A stretch of 64,000 bases of DNA from Acidobacteriota bacterium (GTDB lineage: Bacteria > Acidobacteriota > Vicinamibacteria > Vicinamibacterales > 2-12-FULL-66-21). The stretch covers positions 1 to 64,000 of the forward strand of contig JACPDI010000018.1 of assembly GCA_016184105.1 (NCBI GenBank), given 5' to 3'. A program made the position numbers and the translations under genes. The notes below the pieces were generated by a model. That model made no database searches. It had not been told where the DNA came from and was given only the letters and a program-made list of their open reading frames with translations. This document shows, one piece after another, positions 10,374 to 54,993 of this stretch (its first letter is position 1; the number at the start of each line of letters is the position of its first letter).

Positions 10374-10431
10374 AAGGGGGACAGTCACACTTTCCGAAGC
10401 AGCGGTCCCGGAAAGTGTGACTGTCCCCCTT
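10374..10431. repeat. REP palindrome R1, perfect 23-base arms
   Basis: The arms at 10374-10396 and 10409-10431 are perfect reverse complements around a 12-base loop. Each contains GGGGGACAGTCACACTTTCC. The element sits between two convergent genes, and its end overlaps the stop codon of the metallo-hydrolase gene. Its predicted stem would act in both directions. It is the best-preserved member of the repeat family shared with 36951, 44007, 47065, 52231 and 53024. Confidence 0.9.
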
Positions 10432-35376: not shown

Positions 35377-36950
35377 TGACCAAACGCATCGTCATCATCG
35401 GCGCCGGGCACAACGGGCTGGTCACCGCCTTCTATCTGGCGAAAGCGGGTCTGCGTCCCCTGGTGCTTGAGCGGAGGGCCGTCGTCGGAGGCGCGGCCAC
35501 CACGGAGGAAATCGCCGGCGGGGTGCCGGGACCAGGATTGGCGCACACGCTCGGCCCGCTGCGGCGATCGATCGTGCGGGATATGAAGCTGGCCGAGCGC
35601 GGCGTGCGCTTCATCGACCCGGATCCCGCGACGGTGGCGCTCGCGCCCGACGGGCGGCGCGTGTCGTTCTATCGGGATCCCGCCAGAACACGGACATCGA
35701 TCGAACCGCTGTCGGCGCGCGATGGGGAACGGTATCCGGCATTTGCGGCGACGCTCGACCGGATTGGAGGTGTGCTGCGCGGGTTGCTCGAGATGGCGCC
35801 TCCCGATGTGGACGAACCCGGCACGCGCGATTTGTGGAAGCTCGTCTCGGCGGGGCGCCGATTCAGGGCGCTGCCAAAGCAGGACGCCTTCCGGCTCTTG
35901 CGCTGGATGCCGATGGCGGTGGCGGACCTCGTAGCCGAGTTCTTCGAGCACGATCTCGTGCAGGCCGCGATCGCCGCACGGGCGCTCCAGGGAACGAACC
36001 TCGGCCCGTGGTCCGCGGCAACCGGCGCGCTGCTGCTCCTGCACGCCGCCTCCGATCCGCTGCCGGCCGGGTCGAGCGTGACCGCGGAGGGCGGACCCGG
36101 CGCGGTGACGCAGGCGATGGCGAAGGCCGCGGCCGAGGCGGGCGCGGAAATCCGGGTGGGCGCCCCTGTGGCGCGCATCGAGGCGGACCGCAACGGCGTC
36201 GCGGCCGTGCGCCTCGAGTCCGGCGAGGTCATCTCCGCGAGCGCCATCATCTCCAACGCCGATCCGAAGCAGACGTTCCTGCGGCTGGTCGATCCCACCG
36301 TGCTCGATCCCGGGTTCGTCGCGCGCATTGGCAATTACCGCTCGCGCGGCACGACCGCGAAGATGAACCTCGTGCTGAATGCTCCGCCCGTGTTCACCGC
36401 GCTCGGCGGCGAGGCGTCGCTGCTGGCGGCGCGGCTGCACATCGGTCCGGGAATCGATTACATCGAGCGCGCGTTCGATGCGTCGAAGTACGGGCGATGG
36501 TCGGAGCGGCCGTGGCTGGACGTCCGCGTGCCGACCGCCGGGGACCCGGCGCTCGCCAGCCATGGCATGCACGTCGTCTCGGTGGTGGCGCACTTCGCGC
36601 CGTACGCGCTGCGCGAGGGAGACTGGACGGTTTCGGCGGAGCCGTTCGGCGCCGCCGTGCTGCGTACGCTGGACGAATATGCGCCGGGTCTCTCGTCCAC
36701 CGTCGTCGCGCGGCAGCTGTTCACGCCGAGCGATCTCGAGGAGCGCTGGGCCCTGACGGGCGGGCACATCCACCACGGGGAGCCTGGACTTGATCAACTA
36801 TTCTTCATGCGCCCCGTCATGGGCTGGGCGCGCTACCGCACGCCCGTGAGGGGCCTGTACCTGTGCGGCGCCGGCACGCATCCCGGCCTGGGCTTGACCG
36901 GCGGCTCCGGCCAGAACGCCGCGCGCGAAATCCTCATAGACCTGAAATAA
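35376..36950 (+). CDS. FAD/NAD(P)-dependent oxidoreductase, phytoene-dehydrogenase/CrtO-like (second copy)
   Basis: The 524-residue product repeats the architecture of the preceding gene: I-V-I-I-G-A-G-H-N-G-L-V-T-A at the N-terminus and L-Y-L-C-G-A-G-T-H-P-G-L-G-L-T-G-G at the C-terminus. The ATG overlaps the previous stop by one base (TGATG), with TAGGAGG directly before it. A GTG one codon earlier is also possible. Tandem coupling of two diverged copies suggests that they act together. The stop codon is followed at once by a REP element that forms the start of the M28 peptidase gene. Confidence 0.88.
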   Translation: MTKRIVIIGAGHNGLVTAFYLAKAGLRPLVLERRAVVGGAATTEEIAGGVPGPGLAHTLGPLRRSIVRDMKLAERGVRFIDPDPATVALAPDGRRVSFYRDPARTRTSIEPLSARDGERYPAFAATLDRIGGVLRGLLEMAPPDVDEPGTRDLWKLVSAGRRFRALPKQDAFRLLRWMPMAVADLVAEFFEHDLVQAAIAARALQGTNLGPWSAATGALLLLHAASDPLPAGSSVTAEGGPGAVTQAMAKAAAEAGAEIRVGAPVARIEADRNGVAAVRLESGEVISASAIISNADPKQTFLRLVDPTVLDPGFVARIGNYRSRGTTAKMNLVLNAPPVFTALGGEASLLAARLHIGPGIDYIERAFDASKYGRWSERPWLDVRVPTAGDPALASHGMHVVSVVAHFAPYALREGDWTVSAEPFGAAVLRTLDEYAPGLSSTVVARQLFTPSDLEERWALTGGHIHHGEPGLDQLFFMRPVMGWARYRTPVRGLYLCGAGTHPGLGLTGGSGQNAAREILIDLK

Positions 36951-37028
36951 GTGGGACAGTCACACTTCCGAAGCTCAGCCGTGGCGATAAGTGTGACAGT
37001 CACACTTTTAAGTGTGACTGTCACACTT
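36951..37028. repeat. REP cluster R2 (units a-b-c) forming the 5' end of a gene
   Basis: Unit a is GTGGGACAGTCACACTT (36951-36967). Unit b is AAGTGTGACAGTCACACTT (36989-37007) and unit c AAGTGTGACTGTCACACTT (37010-37028). Units b and c are perfect 9-1-9 palindromes. The spacers are 21 and 2 bases. The cluster starts at the first base after the stop codon of the FAD oxidoreductase and lies wholly inside the reading frame of the M28 peptidase. Confidence 0.95.
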
Positions 37029-39041
37029 ACGGGGCCGCAGGACGCCGGGCGGGCGTTCCAGCAGTCGGTCTCGCCCGAACGCATCCGCGAGTTCCACCAG
37101 TTCCTCTCCGCAGAGCCTCACGTCGCCGGCTCGCTACGCGATCGGCTGCTCGCCGAATGGACGCGCGATCGCTTCAAGGAATTCGGGTTGGACGAGGTCC
37201 GCATCACGGAGCACGAGGTGCTCCTGCCGTACCCGCTGGAGGTGAGCGTCGAAATGACGGCGCCACGCGCCTGGCGGGCAACGATGCGGGAGGAGCCCAT
37301 CGCGGGCGACGAGTACACAGCCAGGAACGATCTCGGCATCCCCCACCATGCGTACTCCGCGTCAGGCGACGTCACCGCGCCTGTCGTGTACGCCGGCAGC
37401 GGCAATCCTGCGGATTACGACTGGCTCGCGGCGCAGGGGATCGACGTTCGCGGCAAGATCGCCATCGTCCGCTACTCCGTTCCCTACAGCTATCGCGGCT
37501 TCAAGGCGCTGACGGCGCAGGAACGCGGCCTCGCAGGCATCCTCATCTACTCCGATCCCGCCGATGATGGCGCGGGCAGAGGCGCCGTGTATCCGAAAGG
37601 GCCGTGGGGCCCCGAGTCGCACATCCAGCGCGGTGGCACGGTGTACGACTTCCTGGTACCGGGCGATCCGCTCACGCCCGGGTGGGCGTCGGTCCCGGGT
37701 GCCAAGCGGATCCAGCGAACGGAAGCGGTGTCGCTGCCCAAGATCATCAGCGCGCCGCTTTCCGCGCGAGACGCACGCGAGATTCTCCGCGTCCTCGACG
37801 GGCCGCAGGTGCCAGCCGCGTGGCAAGGGGGCCTCGGCTTCACGTACCGCGCCGGCAGCGGGCCGGCGACCGTGCGGCTTCGCGTCAGGATGGACGAGGC
37901 GGTGCGGCCGATATGGACGGTGACCGGTGCGATCAAGGGAGGCCTCGATCCAGACTCGCTGGTGATCGTCGGCAATCATCGCGACGCGTGGATCTTCGGA
38001 GGTGTTGACCCGTCGAGCGGATCCGCCGCGCTGATGGAACTGGCGCGGACGCTGGGTGCGCTCGCGCGCAGCGGGCAGCGGCCGCGGCGCACGATCCTCT
38101 TCGCCAGCTGGGATGCCGAAGAGTTCACGCTGACCTCGTCTACCGAGTGGGGCGAGCAGCACGCCGCGACGCTGGCACGACATGCGGTCGCCTACCTGAA
38201 CGTCGACAGCGCGGCGTCAGGCCCGAATTTCGCCGCCTCGGCGGTGCCCTCGTTGAACCGGGTCATCACCGAGGCCGCGCAGCAGGTCATCGACCCGCGG
38301 CGCAAGATCCCGGTGGCCGCCGCCTGGCGCGAGCAGGCGGCGCGCGAGCGCGGCGTGCTTCCGACGGCAGACGGCTCGAACTTGATCAACAACCGGCTGG
38401 GCAGCGGGTCGGACTACACCGTCTTCCTGAATCACCTCGGCATCCCTATCGCCGACCTCTCGTTCGACGGACCGTACGGCGTGTATCACTCCGCGTATGA
38501 CAACCACAATTGGGTGTCGCGCATCGGTGATCCTGGTTTCCTCCACCATGCGGCGCTCGTGAAGATCTGGGGGCTCGCCGCGTTGAAGCTGGCGAATGCT
38601 GACGTGCTGCCGCTCGACGTCGCGAGCTACGCCGATCGGATCGCGGAGTTCGTCAAGGAGGCGGAGCGAAACGCGGCCGTCACGCCGGAGCTAAAGGCGG
38701 CCGTCACGCGCCTGCAGGCCGCCGCGCGCGCGACGATGGCCGAGGTGACGCGGGCGCGGGTGGCGGGCGACGCGGAGGCGCAGGCCCGGCTGAACCGCCG
38801 GCTCATGGCGTTCGAACGGGCGTTCATCGATCCCGCCGGCCTTCCCGGGCGCCCCTGGTACCGGCATCAACTCTACGCGCCCAGGTTCACCTATGCCGCG
38901 GAGGTCCTGCCGGCGCTGACCGAAGCGGCCGAGCTGCCCCAGGCCGCGCGCGACGCGTCACGCGTGGCCGCCGCGCTGGTACAGATCACGGCTTCCCTCG
39001 CACGTGCCACAGAGATCCTGACCGGCGCCGCGATAAGATAG
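36951..39041 (+). CDS. M28-family zinc peptidase, glutamate carboxypeptidase II-like, with REP-encoded N-terminus
   Basis: The product (up to 696 residues) has a protease-associated domain and an M28 catalytic domain. It shows G-N-H-R-D-A-W (about 341), S-W-D-A-E-E-F (about 390), a conserved Asp in L-N-V-D-S-A and G-V-Y-H-S-A-Y-D (about 511). A C-terminal helical dimerisation domain follows. The family removes residues from peptides, usually outside the cytoplasm. Conserved sequence begins near Q-D-A-G-R-A-F (residue 30). All possible starts before it (GTG at 36951, 36981, 36993 and 37014) lie in the REP cluster. The repeats encode A-I-S-V-T-V-T-L-L-S-V-T-V-T-L, the only hydrophobic stretch that could serve as a signal. 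A typical A-x-A cleavage site is not obvious. Confidence 0.88.
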   Translation: MGQSHFRSSAVAISVTVTLLSVTVTLTGPQDAGRAFQQSVSPERIREFHQFLSAEPHVAGSLRDRLLAEWTRDRFKEFGLDEVRITEHEVLLPYPLEVSVEMTAPRAWRATMREEPIAGDEYTARNDLGIPHHAYSASGDVTAPVVYAGSGNPADYDWLAAQGIDVRGKIAIVRYSVPYSYRGFKALTAQERGLAGILIYSDPADDGAGRGAVYPKGPWGPESHIQRGGTVYDFLVPGDPLTPGWASVPGAKRIQRTEAVSLPKIISAPLSARDAREILRVLDGPQVPAAWQGGLGFTYRAGSGPATVRLRVRMDEAVRPIWTVTGAIKGGLDPDSLVIVGNHRDAWIFGGVDPSSGSAALMELARTLGALARSGQRPRRTILFASWDAEEFTLTSSTEWGEQHAATLARHAVAYLNVDSAASGPNFAASAVPSLNRVITEAAQQVIDPRRKIPVAAAWREQAARERGVLPTADGSNLINNRLGSGSDYTVFLNHLGIPIADLSFDGPYGVYHSAYDNHNWVSRIGDPGFLHHAALVKIWGLAALKLANADVLPLDVASYADRIAEFVKEAERNAAVTPELKAAVTRLQAAARATMAEVTRARVAGDAEAQARLNRRLMAFERAFIDPAGLPGRPWYRHQLYAPRFTYAAEVLPALTEAAELPQAARDASRVAAALVQITASLARATEILTGAAIR

Positions 39042-50244: not shown

Positions 50245-52302
50245 CTATCGGAGGGCGGCGAGCAACTCGCTCGCCGCCCGTTTTTCGCGCGAGCCCGCCG
50301 GTGCGGCACCGACCACCTTGCGATACTGCTCGGCAGCTCGTGCCGTTTCTCCGCTCTCCTGCAGGGCAATCCCCAGGTTCAACCGCGCCTCGTGGAACGC
50401 GGGGTCGTACGCGATCGCGCGTTCGAAAAACGGAATGGCGTCCATGGGACGCTGTTGCTGGACGAGGATCACGCCCATCCCGTTCGACGCGTCCGCGTAG
50501 CGGGGATCGAGATCGATCGCGCGCTGATACGCCGTCGATGCGGCTGCCAGCTCACCTGTCTCGCGGCGCGCGTTGCCCAGATTCGTCCAGAAGGAGGCGT
50601 TGTTCGAATCGAGCCGGGTGGCCTGCTCGAAGGCCGCCGCCGCGTCAGCGGCTCGGCCGGCGTCGGCGTGTAGCAGCCCCAGGCCGTTGTGCGCGTTCGG
50701 GTCGTCGGGCGCCAGCGCGAGAGCCGCCTGCTCCGCCTTCATGGCCTCCACCCGTTCGCCGGCCGCTCGAGCCGCGAGGGCGAGACCGTGGAACAGCGTG
50801 GCGTCATCGGGCCAGCGTGAAACAAGACGGCGATAGAACTGCAGCGCCTGCGGCGTTCGGCCCGTATCCTTGAGCGCCTGCGCGTACGATGCCTGGAACA
50901 CCCGCGCCGATGGAAAGCTTGCCGCGAGCGTTCTGAGATCGGCCAGTGCCTCCGCGCTGCGTCCCGAGGCGGTCAGGGATAACGCCTGCTCGAATCGGTT
51001 CCACGCTGAAATGAAATCGCGCGGGTTCGGCGCGCCCGCGGGCGTGCGGCCCGACGGCGCGGCCGCCACGTAGCCGAGCGCGCGCAGGCGGTCCGCGGCA
51101 TCGGGCGTCGCGGATGGCGAAGTCCTGGCGCTTTCGAAAATCCGATCCAGGCGCGTTCGCATCGCCGCCGCGACCGACGCGTTCTGTGCGACGACGTTCT
51201 CTTTCTCACCGGCATCGCGGGAAAGGTCGAAGAGCTCCGGGCCGGATGACGAGAGCAGCTTCCAGCGATCGTCCACGAGAGCCCGCACGGGGCTCCATCC
51301 CGCCGCGCGTGGGTAGGTCGTTTCCGCGTAGATGTCCGTCGACGCTCCGGCGATCACATCGACGCCGGTCATCGTCGCGGGCGCCTGCAGGCCGGCGCGC
51401 GCCAGCAGCGTCGGCGCAAGGTCGCGCAGGCTGGCGGGCGCGTCGTTGCGCGTGCCGCCCTGGACACCGGGCCCGGCGACGATGAACGGCACGCGCAGCG
51501 TCGAGTCGTACAACAGCATCCCGTGCGTCGCCTCGCCGTGCTCGCCGAGGCCCTCGCCATGATCGCCTGCGAGCGCCACGACGAGATCAGGGCCGACCTT
51601 TCTGCGAACGTCGCGGATGAGCGAGCCGACCTGCGAGTCGGCGAACGCCACTTCGCCCTCGTACGCACGATGACCGGCGGTCTTCAGGAACTCGGCCGGC
51701 GGCGCGTGGGGCGCGTGGGGATCGTAGAGATGCACCCAGACAAACAGCGGCTTCGATGCGTCCGCACCTGCCAGCCACTTGAGCGCGGCGACGACGACCT
51801 GGTCCGCGCGGCGCTCGGATTCGAGGCGCGCGGGGGCCCGGGGGTCGCGCGGGATACGGTCGTCGTACATCTCGAAGCCGTCTGACAGCCCGAACCGCCG
51901 GTCGAGCACGTACGCGCCCACGAATGCGGCAGTCGTGTAACCTGCGTCGCGGAACAGGCGCGCGAGCGTCGGGCGCGAGCCGTCGAAACGGTGGACGCCG
52001 TTTTCCCGCACGCCGTGTTCGGGCGGGAGCGTCCCCGTCATGATGGAGACGTGCGACGGGAGCGTGAGCGGCACCGTCGCGCGCGTGTTGGTGAAGCTGA
52101 CGCCTTCCTGCGCGAGCGCATCGATCGCGGGCGTCAGTCCGCGCCCCACGCGGTCCGCGCGCAGCGTGTCGATCGTGACGAGCAGCACCGAAGGGGTGCC
52201 CTTCGACGCCGGTGGCGCGCCGCACGCCATAAGTGTGACAGTCACACTTATCAGAAGTGTGACAGTCACACTTATCGGCCGGAGAAAGTGTGACTGTCCC
52301 AC
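50245..52302 (-). CDS. Sulfatase/AlkP-fold lipoprotein with TPRs and REP-encoded signal peptide (second copy)
   Basis: From the GTG at 52302 the product has 685 residues. Residues 1-27 form a lipoprotein signal: MGQSHFLRP, then ISVTVTLLISVTVTL, then lipobox L24-M-A-C27. Residues 3-24 are encoded almost wholly by three REP units. The AlkP-superfamily domain follows (T-I-D45-T-L-R-A-D50; A-G-D-H-G-E-G-L-G-E-H-G-E). T80-L-P-S-H84 stands in place of the sulfatase formylglycine motif. TPR repeats fill the last 250 residues. The reading frame stays open upstream to 52689 but is antisense to the transposase gene. An alternative ATG at 52230 would give M-A-C-G-A-P-P and no export signal. Confidence 0.87.
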   Translation of the reverse strand: MGQSHFLRPISVTVTLLISVTVTLMACGAPPASKGTPSVLLVTIDTLRADRVGRGLTPAIDALAQEGVSFTNTRATVPLTLPSHVSIMTGTLPPEHGVRENGVHRFDGSRPTLARLFRDAGYTTAAFVGAYVLDRRFGLSDGFEMYDDRIPRDPRAPARLESERRADQVVVAALKWLAGADASKPLFVWVHLYDPHAPHAPPAEFLKTAGHRAYEGEVAFADSQVGSLIRDVRRKVGPDLVVALAGDHGEGLGEHGEATHGMLLYDSTLRVPFIVAGPGVQGGTRNDAPASLRDLAPTLLARAGLQAPATMTGVDVIAGASTDIYAETTYPRAAGWSPVRALVDDRWKLLSSSGPELFDLSRDAGEKENVVAQNASVAAAMRTRLDRIFESARTSPSATPDAADRLRALGYVAAAPSGRTPAGAPNPRDFISAWNRFEQALSLTASGRSAEALADLRTLAASFPSARVFQASYAQALKDTGRTPQALQFYRRLVSRWPDDATLFHGLALAARAAGERVEAMKAEQAALALAPDDPNAHNGLGLLHADAGRAADAAAAFEQATRLDSNNASFWTNLGNARRETGELAAASTAYQRAIDLDPRYADASNGMGVILVQQQRPMDAIPFFERAIAYDPAFHEARLNLGIALQESGETARAAEQYRKVVGAAPAGSREKRAASELLAALR

Positions 52303-52304
52303 TT
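52231..52304. repeat. REP cluster R5 (units a-b-c) at gene 5' end beside the RAYT gene
   Basis: Two perfect 9-1-9 palindromes, AAGTGTGACAGTCACACTT, lie at 52231-52249 and 52255-52273. A third unit with CCCAC lies at 52285-52304. Read on the minus strand the order is a-b-c with spacers of 12 and 5 bases, inside the sulfatase-fold reading frame. The cluster ends 40 bases before the RAYT start codon. Confidence 0.95.
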
Positions 52305-52344: not shown

Positions 52345-53031
52345 ATGTCGAGACACCGACGCGTCACTCCTGCAGCGTACCCTCAGCACGTGCTCAACCG
52401 TGGGAACGAGAAGGCGACGATCTTTCACAAACCCGCTGATTATGAAGCATTCCTCTCGATCCTGGCAGACGGAATGACGCGGGTGGCCATCCGCATCCTG
52501 GCCTTCTGCTTGATGCGGAATCACTTTCATCTGGTCCTGCTGCCAAGCACGGCGTACGCAATCCCTGCGTACATGCGATGGACCATGAATGTGCACGTTC
52601 GGCGTTATCGCCAGCATTATCGGTCGAACGGTACCGGGCACGTTTATCAGGACCGATACAAGAACTACGTAATCCAGGACGAGACGCACCTGCTCACGGT
52701 GCTGCGCTATGTCGAAGGAAATGCCGCGCGGGCCAACCTGGTCGAGCGGGCTGAGGACTGGCCGTGGTCGAGCCTGAACCGAACAGCGACCGGCGATGGC
52801 CGCACAATAGTGTCGGCGTGGCCCTGCCCACGCCCATCAAATTGGGCGGACATTGTCAACGAGCCGTTCTCTATCGAGGCTCTCCAGCGGCTGCGTCAAT
52901 CGGCCGAGCGCGGAGTACCGTATGGATCAGAGGAGTGGGTCGAAGAGACGGTTCGGCGGTACGGGCTCGAATCGACGGTACGACCCCCTCATCGCCCGGC
53001 GGGCGGCCCGCAGAAGCTACCAGAAGTGTGA
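52345..53031 (+). CDS. REP-associated tyrosine transposase (RAYT, Y1/HUH family)
   Basis: The 228-residue product has the Y1 transposase fold. The metal-binding H60-F-H62 lies in L-M-R-N-H-F-H-L-V. The candidate catalytic tyrosine is Y122 in L-R-Y-V-E-G-N-A-A-R-A, and W-P-W-S-S after it is typical of RAYTs. Such proteins bind and cut REP hairpins as single strands and are held to spread REP elements. Direct copies of AAGTGTGACTGTCCCACTT flank the gene at 52286 and 53024. Its TGA stop and last codons (L-P-E-V) lie in the downstream copy. The enzyme appears intact. Confidence 0.92.
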   Translation: MSRHRRVTPAAYPQHVLNRGNEKATIFHKPADYEAFLSILADGMTRVAIRILAFCLMRNHFHLVLLPSTAYAIPAYMRWTMNVHVRRYRQHYRSNGTGHVYQDRYKNYVIQDETHLLTVLRYVEGNAARANLVERAEDWPWSSLNRTATGDGRTIVSAWPCPRPSNWADIVNEPFSIEALQRLRQSAERGVPYGSEEWVEETVRRYGLESTVRPPHRPAGGPQKLPEV

Positions 53032-53042
53032 CTGTCCCACTT
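53024..53042 (+). repeat. REP unit R6 at the 3' end of the RAYT gene
   Basis: AAGTGTGACTGTCCCACTT repeats the unit at 52286-52304 in direct orientation. It contains the RAYT stop codon and touches the stop codon (TAA) of the convergent antiporter gene. The two direct copies bracket the transposase gene as a possible mobile unit. Confidence 0.9.
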
Positions 53043-54993
53043 ATCCGCGGGTGAGGCGGCGCCGCGCCAGTAGGATGTCGCTGGGATCGCCCATCAGGTA
53101 CAGGACATCGCCGGCGTTCAGCGTGGCAGCCGCCGCGGGCGACGTCGTGCGGTGCCCCTGCGACTCGAGCGCGACCACCAGTGCGCCCGTTTCGGCCCGC
53201 AGGTTCACGTCCGCAATCGTCCGGCCCACCGCCCAGTCCCCCGCCGACAGCACGTGCGTCGCGACAGGCGACTGGCTGATGGCGCTGACGGCGTCCATCG
53301 GCCGCGACGGCGCACGAACCGGGCGCAGGCTCTCGGTCTCATGTCGGATCATGTCGAGCGTCGTCTCGATGAGATTTCCCGGGATGTTGACACGCGCGAG
53401 GAGCTGCGCGAGCACCTCGAGGGATGTTTCAATCTCTTCAGCGACCGCCACAGTGGCTCCAGCCTCCTCCATGCGACGGGCCTCGCCGCGATACCGCGTC
53501 CGCACGATCACCGGGATGGCCGGCGCCACGTCACGTGCCACTTTGACGACGCGCAGCGATGCATCGGCATCGCTCAGTACGAGGGCGAGGGCACGCGCGC
53601 GCCCGATGCCCGCGGCGCGGAGGCTGTGCGGATTGGCGGCGTCGGCGTACATGATCGATTCCCCAGCGGTGCGCGCCTCGCGCACGGCGGCACCGTTCAA
53701 ATCGAGAACGAGGTACGGCACGCCAAATTTCTTCAGCGTCTTCGTGATCAGCCGGCCGCCGGCGCCGTATCCCATCACGATGACGTGGTCGGCCAGCGTG
53801 CTCGACAGTCCCTCCCGGGGAGCCGGCCGACGACGGCCGGTCAGCCGGGCCGCGATCCCGGGCGCGAAGGCCAGCAGCGCCGGCGTCAGCATCATGGTCC
53901 CGATGCTCGCGGCAAGCAGCGTCTGCCACACGTCCGGCGGCAGCAACCCGGCCTGAAGGCCGGCGCGGCCCAACACGAAGGAGAATTCCCCCACCTGTGC
54001 GAGGGCGATGCCGGCGGCAATCGCCACTCGCGCGCTCGGCGCAAACGGCATGAGCACGGCGGCGGCCGCAAGGGCCTTGACGACCACGATCGTGAGAAGC
54101 GCCGCCGCTATCCACGGAAACGCGCGCAGCACGAACGCGGGGTGCAGCAGCATTCCGAGCGAGATGAAGAAGAGGCTGGACAGGATGTCACGCAGCGGCC
54201 GGATTTCCGCATGGGCCTGGTGGCTGAACTCGCTCTCTGCCAGCACCAGCCCGCCAAGAAAAGCGCCGAGCGCCATCGAGACGCCCAACAGCGAGCTGGC
54301 CCACGCGGTTCCGACGCTCGCGAGCAGGATCGCCAGCGGAAAGGCTTCGCGACGCCCGCTCCGCAGGACCCAACGCACGAAGAGCGGCAGCACCAGCCGG
54401 CCCACGCCGGCAACGATCGCGAGCGCGACAGCCGCGCGCAGCAGCGCTTCTCCCGCCCTGCCGGCCGGCGCCTGCCCGGCGAGGATCGGCACCATCAGCA
54501 GCAGCACGACGATCGAAAGATCCTGGAACAGCAGCACGCCCGTCGTCAGGCGCCCTGCAGGGGAACCAAGTTCGTTGCGCGAACCCATTTCCTTCAGGAC
54601 GATTGCCGTGCTGGACAAGGACACAAACAGGCCGGCGAACACCGCCACGCGCGGCGCAACGGTGGAAAACGCGACAAGCAGCGCCGCCACCAGGCCTGCC
54701 GTGACCGTCACCTGGAGGAGCCCTCCCGCCAGCGTCGCGCGCCACAGGCGGCGCATCTCGGCGAGCGAGAAGTCAAGCCCGACGGTGAACAACAGGAGCA
54801 CGATGCCGATCTCGGCCATGAGATCGACCTCGGACTGCGTTGCGACGAACGCCAACCCGTGCGGCCCGGCGGCGATCCCGGCGAGAATCATGGCGACGAT
54901 GGCGGGAATCCGCAGCCGCGCGAAGAGAACGATCAGGACGAGCGCGACGGCGTAGGCCGGGATCAGGCCGGCAAGAAGGGCGTGTTCCGACAT
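53041..54993 (-). CDS. CPA2-type cation/proton antiporter with RCK domains (Kef-like)
   Basis: The 650-residue product has an N-terminal sodium/hydrogen-exchanger domain of about 12 helices (1-390; F-T-V-G-L-D-F and L-L-F-Q-D-L-S-I). An RCK_N/TrkA-N nucleotide-binding domain follows (about 405-525, V-I-V-M-G-Y-G-A-G-G-R). A C-terminal TrkA-C domain ends it (about 565-648). It would exchange K+ or Na+ for protons at the inner membrane under nucleotide control. Whether it is glutathione-gated like KefB/KefC is not known. The stop abuts REP unit R6. Confidence 0.9.
   Translation of the reverse strand: MSEHALLAGLIPAYAVALVLIVLFARLRIPAIVAMILAGIAAGPHGLAFVATQSEVDLMAEIGIVLLLFTVGLDFSLAEMRRLWRATLAGGLLQVTVTAGLVAALLVAFSTVAPRVAVFAGLFVSLSSTAIVLKEMGSRNELGSPAGRLTTGVLLFQDLSIVVLLLMVPILAGQAPAGRAGEALLRAAVALAIVAGVGRLVLPLFVRWVLRSGRREAFPLAILLASVGTAWASSLLGVSMALGAFLGGLVLAESEFSHQAHAEIRPLRDILSSLFFISLGMLLHPAFVLRAFPWIAAALLTIVVVKALAAAAVLMPFAPSARVAIAAGIALAQVGEFSFVLGRAGLQAGLLPPDVWQTLLAASIGTMMLTPALLAFAPGIAARLTGRRRPAPREGLSSTLADHVIVMGYGAGGRLITKTLKKFGVPYLVLDLNGAAVREARTAGESIMYADAANPHSLRAAGIGRARALALVLSDADASLRVVKVARDVAPAIPVIVRTRYRGEARRMEEAGATVAVAEEIETSLEVLAQLLARVNIPGNLIETTLDMIRHETESLRPVRAPSRPMDAVSAISQSPVATHVLSAGDWAVGRTIADVNLRAETGALVVALESQGHRTTSPAAAATLNAGDVLYLMGDPSDILLARRRLTRG

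Follow-up and report, generated by a model that had tools for sequence, protein, structure and literature searches.

REP palindromes at the 5′ end of a sulfatase-TPR gene

On the minus strand of the window (the whole 64-kb stretch of DNA analyzed here), a sulfatase-fold protein with TPR families is encoded by a gene whose 5′ end passes through a REP array adjoining a RAYT (REP-associated tyrosine transposase) gene. The features of this locus are as follows.

50245 to 52302, minus strand: sulfatase-fold and TPR protein (PF00884 plus TPR families; 685 aa from GTG 52302)
52222 to 52233, minus strand: candidate chimeric lipobox L-M-A-C (Leu from REP, Met partly from the REP flank (AT), Ala-Cys native)
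52231 to 52249, minus strand: perfect-palindrome (TT) REP unit 2, core AAGTGTGACAGTCACACTT, encoding S-V-T-V-T-L; its last codon, CTT (Leu), is lipobox position -3
52255 to 52273, minus strand: TT REP unit 1, core AAGTGTGACAGTCACACTT, encoding S-V-T-V-T-L
52286 to 52304, minus strand: imperfect (GT) REP unit AAGTGTGACTGTCCCACTT, in gene sense AAGTGGGACAGTCACACTT, with the GTG start at 52300-52302 and residues M-G-Q-S-H-F
52345 to 53031, plus strand: RAYT, 228 aa (PF01797, E 1.1e-12)
53024 to 53042, no strand assigned: fourth REP unit, on the far side of the RAYT
53041 to 54993, minus strand: KefB/KefC-like gene, its TAA stop overlapped by the fourth REP unit

In gene sense, the array consists of one imperfect unit (AAGTGGGACAGTCACACTT) and two perfect palindromes (AAGTGTGACTGTCACACTT), followed by ATG GCG TGC. 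The frame is open from GTG 52302 to the stop at 50245, and its N-terminus reads MGQSHFLRPISVTVTLLISVTVTLMACGAPP, or, divided by units, MGQSHFLRP-ISVTVTLL-ISVTVTL-MAC-GAPP. A preliminary description of this DNA had reported three REP palindromes running in frame into the gene on the minus strand, as is indeed seen in the sequence, each giving S-V-T-V-T-L. The latter is correct for two of the three units, whereas the imperfect unit lies in another phase and reads (V/M)GQSHF. ATG 52230, which had been named as the only other start, is the sole ATG there, but GTG 52269 and GTG 52245 are also in frame. From ATG 52230, the protein would have 661 aa. Because the frame is also open upstream, into the RAYT antisense, the start is not pinned by a stop codon. 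By eye, no Shine-Dalgarno sequence was seen ahead of either GTG 52302 or ATG 52230.

The palindromes form a high-copy family associated with a RAYT

The host genome, from an acidobacterium, is a 4.24-Mb draft (69 contigs, 96% complete). It contains 97 exact copies of the palindrome AAGTGKGACWGTCMCACTT (20 of the perfect form, 74 of the imperfect form and 3 of a third), and about 58 further sites match with two mismatches or fewer. A reversed control had no copy in the same genome, and a sample of 395 other genomes of the phylum lacked the palindrome, which shows that it is not a chance sequence. Outside those 395, one genome among a sample of 80 relatives has it; this genome, of the same family (G009; L087-L089), has three perfect copies next to degenerate AAGTGTGACAGTCACAGTT repeats, which may be an old remnant of the palindrome family or its ancestor. 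A variant palindrome, AAGGGGGACAGTCACACTT, present with one or two mismatches at window positions 10374, 10413, 44006 and 47065, perhaps represents a second subfamily.

Most REP clusters in the genome are inverted (> <) pairs 36-46 bp apart. As in known REPIN/RAYT systems, the pairs are numerous and confined in their spread to a single genome, and the RAYT is flanked by REPs. Di Nocera et al. 2013 (PMC3733652) describe two REP superfamilies, tagged GTAG or CGTC at one end. Neither tetranucleotide is found in the core AAGTGKGACWGTCMCACTT, and the flanks beyond "at" vary. Despite the missing tag, the paired, high-copy arrangement of the repeat is REPIN behavior. Unlike ordinary REPINs, each of the arrays at the two genes considered here has three units (GT, TT, TT), the two TT units lying close together.

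The RAYT also matches NF047646, the NCBIfam model for REP-associated transposases (E 3.8e-16), with a score of 59 bits that lies below the curated cut-off of 80. It is flanked by REPs of one family, at 52286 and 53024, and the second Y1_Tnp gene of the genome has no such REP nearby. The TGA stop of the RAYT (53029-53031) comes from the flanking REP at 53024. Neighboring genes often owe the last letter of their stop codon to a REP end (TA plus A from the REP), as at L047, L049, L052, L055, L060, L069, L078 and L084 and, in the window, at 36948-36950 and 53041-53043; such stops are comparable to the stop codons formed by GTAG REPs in PMC3733652. Truncation of the KefB/KefC-like gene by the insertion was ruled out, as it is full length relative to that of genome G024.

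A second array at the 5′ end of an M28 peptidase gene

Within the same window, 15 kb from the sulfatase array, we identified a second, independent case that the preliminary description had not mentioned.

36949 to 36967, plus strand: GT REP unit, completing the TAA stop of the upstream CrtO-like gene and containing the GTG start 36951; M-G-Q-S-H-F
36989 to 37007, plus strand: TT REP unit 1; S-V-T-V-T-L
37010 to 37028, plus strand: TT REP unit 2; S-V-T-V-T-L
36951 to 39041, plus strand: M28/PA-domain/TFR-dimer peptidase (Pfam; 696 aa from GTG 36951)

The N-terminus reads MGQSHFRSSAVA-ISVTVTLL-SVTVTL-TGPQDAG. The order of the units (imperfect, perfect, perfect) and their phases are identical to those of the sulfatase array, and the spacers differ. 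A scan of the frame found no ATG, GTG or TTG from the array up to a TTG at codon 80, and similarity to orthologues starts at about residue 34. Expression of the gene therefore requires initiation inside the REP DNA; judging from the frame, this would take place at the GTG directly after the upstream TAA, barring an unusual start codon or a defunct gene. The M28 array is stronger evidence than the sulfatase array originally noted.

Short repeats can be mis-joined in a fragmented assembly, and the genome is a draft of this kind. For the two arrays, such an artefact is hardly credible: the units are only 19 nt long, their flanks are unique, and both genes form one open frame across the junction.

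Phase and spacing of REP units inside genes

Only three tight TT-TT arrays occur in the 4.24 Mb of the genome; two are the N-termini described above, and the third is intergenic. The TT-TT spacing is 24 in the sulfatase array and 21 in the M28 array, both multiples of three, versus 22, not a multiple of three, in the intergenic array. In both genes, the unit phases are 0,1,1, arrived at through different spacings (31+24 versus 40+21) and through spacers of little similarity (12 and 5 nt in the sulfatase gene versus 21 and 2 nt in the M28 gene). If phases were random, both arrays would have their two perfect units in the hydrophobic phase with a probability of 1/81, a post-hoc figure; across just two arrays, the phase match is modest evidence.

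A broader comparison was provided by eight in-frame REPIN pairs inside conserved genes, encoding POR alpha, ferrochelatase, a PALP enzyme, an ABC transporter, 3HCDH, thiolase, and Obg-like and EngB-like GTPases (L054, L057, L063, L068, L075 (two), L079 and L086). Spacing was divisible by three in all eight, but in only 10 of 34 extragenic pairs (Fisher p = 0.0004). This difference in spacing makes it very probable that REPs in this genome get translated and that frame matters.

These observations bear on the possibility that the arrays are RNA-level elements (hairpins, terminators or mRNA stabilizers, as REPs often are) with incidental coding. The array RNAs are predicted to fold into very stable hairpins (z -6.2, -5.5 and -4.2), which may hinder translation, and many REP copies in the genome stand at gene 3′ ends. 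We nevertheless consider this explanation improbable, since the M28 gene must be translated through its array and the in-gene REPIN pairs keep a spacing divisible by three.

Neither a peptide search nor a tandem-pattern search of the genome found a third in-frame, signal-like array. Ten other REP clusters at gene 5′ ends (L044, L045, L053, L056, L066, L069, L071, L072, L082 and L083) were rejected as N-terminal replacements because the ATG mostly lies downstream of the REP.

Resemblance of the REP-encoded segments to export signals

The perfect palindrome encodes Ser-Val-Thr-Val-Thr-Leu in one phase, so that two in-phase tandem units form a hydrophobic segment. The best 14-residue Kyte-Doolittle window scored 2.27 in the sulfatase and 2.23 in the M28 peptidase. 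The corresponding value for 56 homologue N-termini was 2.45 ± 0.36 (mean, sd), which places the REP cores within the range and slightly below the mean. Internal segments reached the hydrophobicity of the REP cores in 4-5% of cases, and random 26-codon windows of the genome had an open frame with such a core in 0.7%. The sulfatase form starting at ATG 52230 scored 0.97. Both REP cores have a Ser/Val/Thr composition that is beta-prone.

In the sulfatase, L-M-A-C, with Cys 27 at a plausible distance from the start, matches the regular expression [LVI]-x-[AGS]-C, a lipobox pattern. The hydrophobic core and lipobox claimed for this segment in the preliminary description are thus both present. In the classic lipoprotein pattern, a positive charge is expected within the first seven residues; the n-region of the sulfatase has one Arg, at position 8, and none in the first seven, and orthologue L009 is likewise. 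In the M28 peptidase, the n-region has Arg 7, and by eye we saw only weak cleavage sites (e.g. G-R-A|F) and no clean SPI site. Bacterial and yeast export tolerates a wide range of hydrophobic sequences, making it plausible that REPs could replace a signal.

Orthologues carry unrelated signals at the position of the arrays

Sulfatase orthologues with 51-59% identity have ordinary N-terminal signals or anchors at the REP position, e.g. LSAAACLLLTAC and MKSGSRLIAGPSRSLLLLTLLLSAAC. At the M28 array position, too, orthologues with up to 66% identity have signal peptides of the standard kind. No REP-like peptide occurs at the N-termini of the orthologues compared for either gene. When the window sulfatase is aligned with six orthologues, all of them share the lipobox Cys, which places the end of the array within the lipobox, with Leu from the REP and native Ala-Cys. 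The unrelated orthologue signals and the aligned Cys in all six agree with the earlier proposal that the native signal was replaced by REP DNA; the replacement probably reaches up to the lipobox. The relatives compared include no genome of the same genus, and the pre-insertion site is therefore not among them. In a synteny check, the short flanks of relatives showed no KefB-like gene beside the sulfatase gene. TAAGAT/GATAAT-like boxes stand 5-15 nt before the start codon in orthologues L005, L006, L008 and L009, which suggests leaderless or very short-leader transcripts in the lineage.

The insertion might instead just have deleted the export signal, leaving a sulfatase that starts at ATG 52230 and is cytoplasmic or dying, with the upstream open frame arising by chance. 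ATG 52230 directly abuts the REP, as does the ATG of a PolX-like gene (L082) whose Pfam match begins at that Met, and in the other 5′-flank loci examined the ATG is mostly downstream of the REP. PMC3733652 cautions that translation is improbable for many of the REPs located at ORF N-termini. We regard this explanation as unlikely: close sulfatase orthologues have a signal or anchor, a strong RNA hairpin would precede ATG 52230 and include it in its pairing, which makes it less attractive as a start, and the explanation fails for the M28 gene, with no start after its array, and for the parallel phases of the two arrays.

A different outcome, itself a sub-case of the REP-derived export signal and overlapping with it in confidence, is that the REP segment is translated and stays on the protein as an N-terminal membrane anchor that is not cleaved. 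No good cleavage site was seen in the M28 version, and plain transmembrane anchors lacking a lipobox Cys are found in four sulfatase orthologues (L002, L006, L007 and L008). On the other side, the sulfatase keeps L-M-A-C, with its Cys aligned to orthologous lipoboxes. We give the anchor a rather low probability.

Comparison with known translated repeats

The preliminary description had held the use of such repeats as an export signal to be undescribed, which is too strong, as there is a precedent in Yersinia. The RU-2/YPAL MITE forms residues 1-30 of the predicted signal peptide in YPO1552, and in homologues from other genera the signal peptides are unrelated (Delihas 2007, PMC2759123). In both cases, a palindromic mobile repeat supplies a predicted signal and the signals of homologues are unrelated. 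RU-2 is, however, a 168-bp MITE in a 144-aa putative exported protein, whereas here the repeats are 19-nt RAYT-linked REPs, they contribute to two large conserved enzymes encoded by a single genome and, unlike in the RU-2 case, two REP units make up the whole hydrophobic core.

In Di Nocera et al. 2013 (PMC3733652), REPs occur in frame within ORFs, some of them N-terminally, and REP ends form the stops of flanking ORFs; the section examined ascribes no export role to intragenic REPs and regards many N-terminal cases as untranslated. In-frame insertion and stop formation are thus common to those REPs and ours, and the core here is without GTAG or CGTC. The Rickettsia RPEs (Ogata et al., cited in PMC2229807) are selfish palindromes translated inside protein genes; at 105-146 bp and with long terminal inverted repeats, they differ from the 19-nt units here. 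Neither a RAYT link nor an export role for RPEs was found in the open-access literature examined. In the open-access literature, we likewise found neither RAYT-linked REPs that form an entire signal core nor a genome with two instances of this.

REP-derived segments as putative export signals

Taken together, we think it reasonably probable, from the sequence, that the REP palindromes at the 5′ ends of these two genes for exported enzymes are REP-derived, Sec-type export signals. The signal interpretation originally given for the sulfatase gene is accordingly supported in part and, overall, probable. We infer that a RAYT/REP array was inserted at the 5′ end of each gene, presumably by RAYT activity, with loss of the native signal peptide. 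The imperfect unit would contribute the GTG start codon, followed by a short n-region containing a single Arg (MGQSHFLRP or MGQSHFRSS), and the two in-phase tandem perfect palindromes would form a hydrophobic segment of about 16 residues. In the sulfatase, the last REP Leu and the surviving native Ala-Cys would rebuild the lipobox LMAC, giving a putative Sec/SPII lipoprotein signal and lipidation of the protein. In the M28 peptidase, the REP segment would act as a signal peptide or as an uncleaved N-terminal anchor. Selection may have acted both on phase and on the perfect form of the palindrome.

More tentatively, the palindrome family may be a portable export-signal cassette, whose 5′ insertions are kept only if phase and unit form rebuild a signal, as would have happened at least twice in this genome; we see this extension as possible, though somewhat less likely than not.

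If the proposed role is true, this is a clear case in which selfish DNA, by replacing the native sequence, has taken on a function that proteins require, namely export, for two conserved enzymes encoded in a single genome. It would also make testable how loosely signal peptides are specified and how secreted genes survive 5′ insertions. Gene callers would need caution as well: by placing the start downstream of the repeat, they would wrongly present an exported enzyme as cytoplasmic and, for the M28 gene, cut off the N-terminal part.
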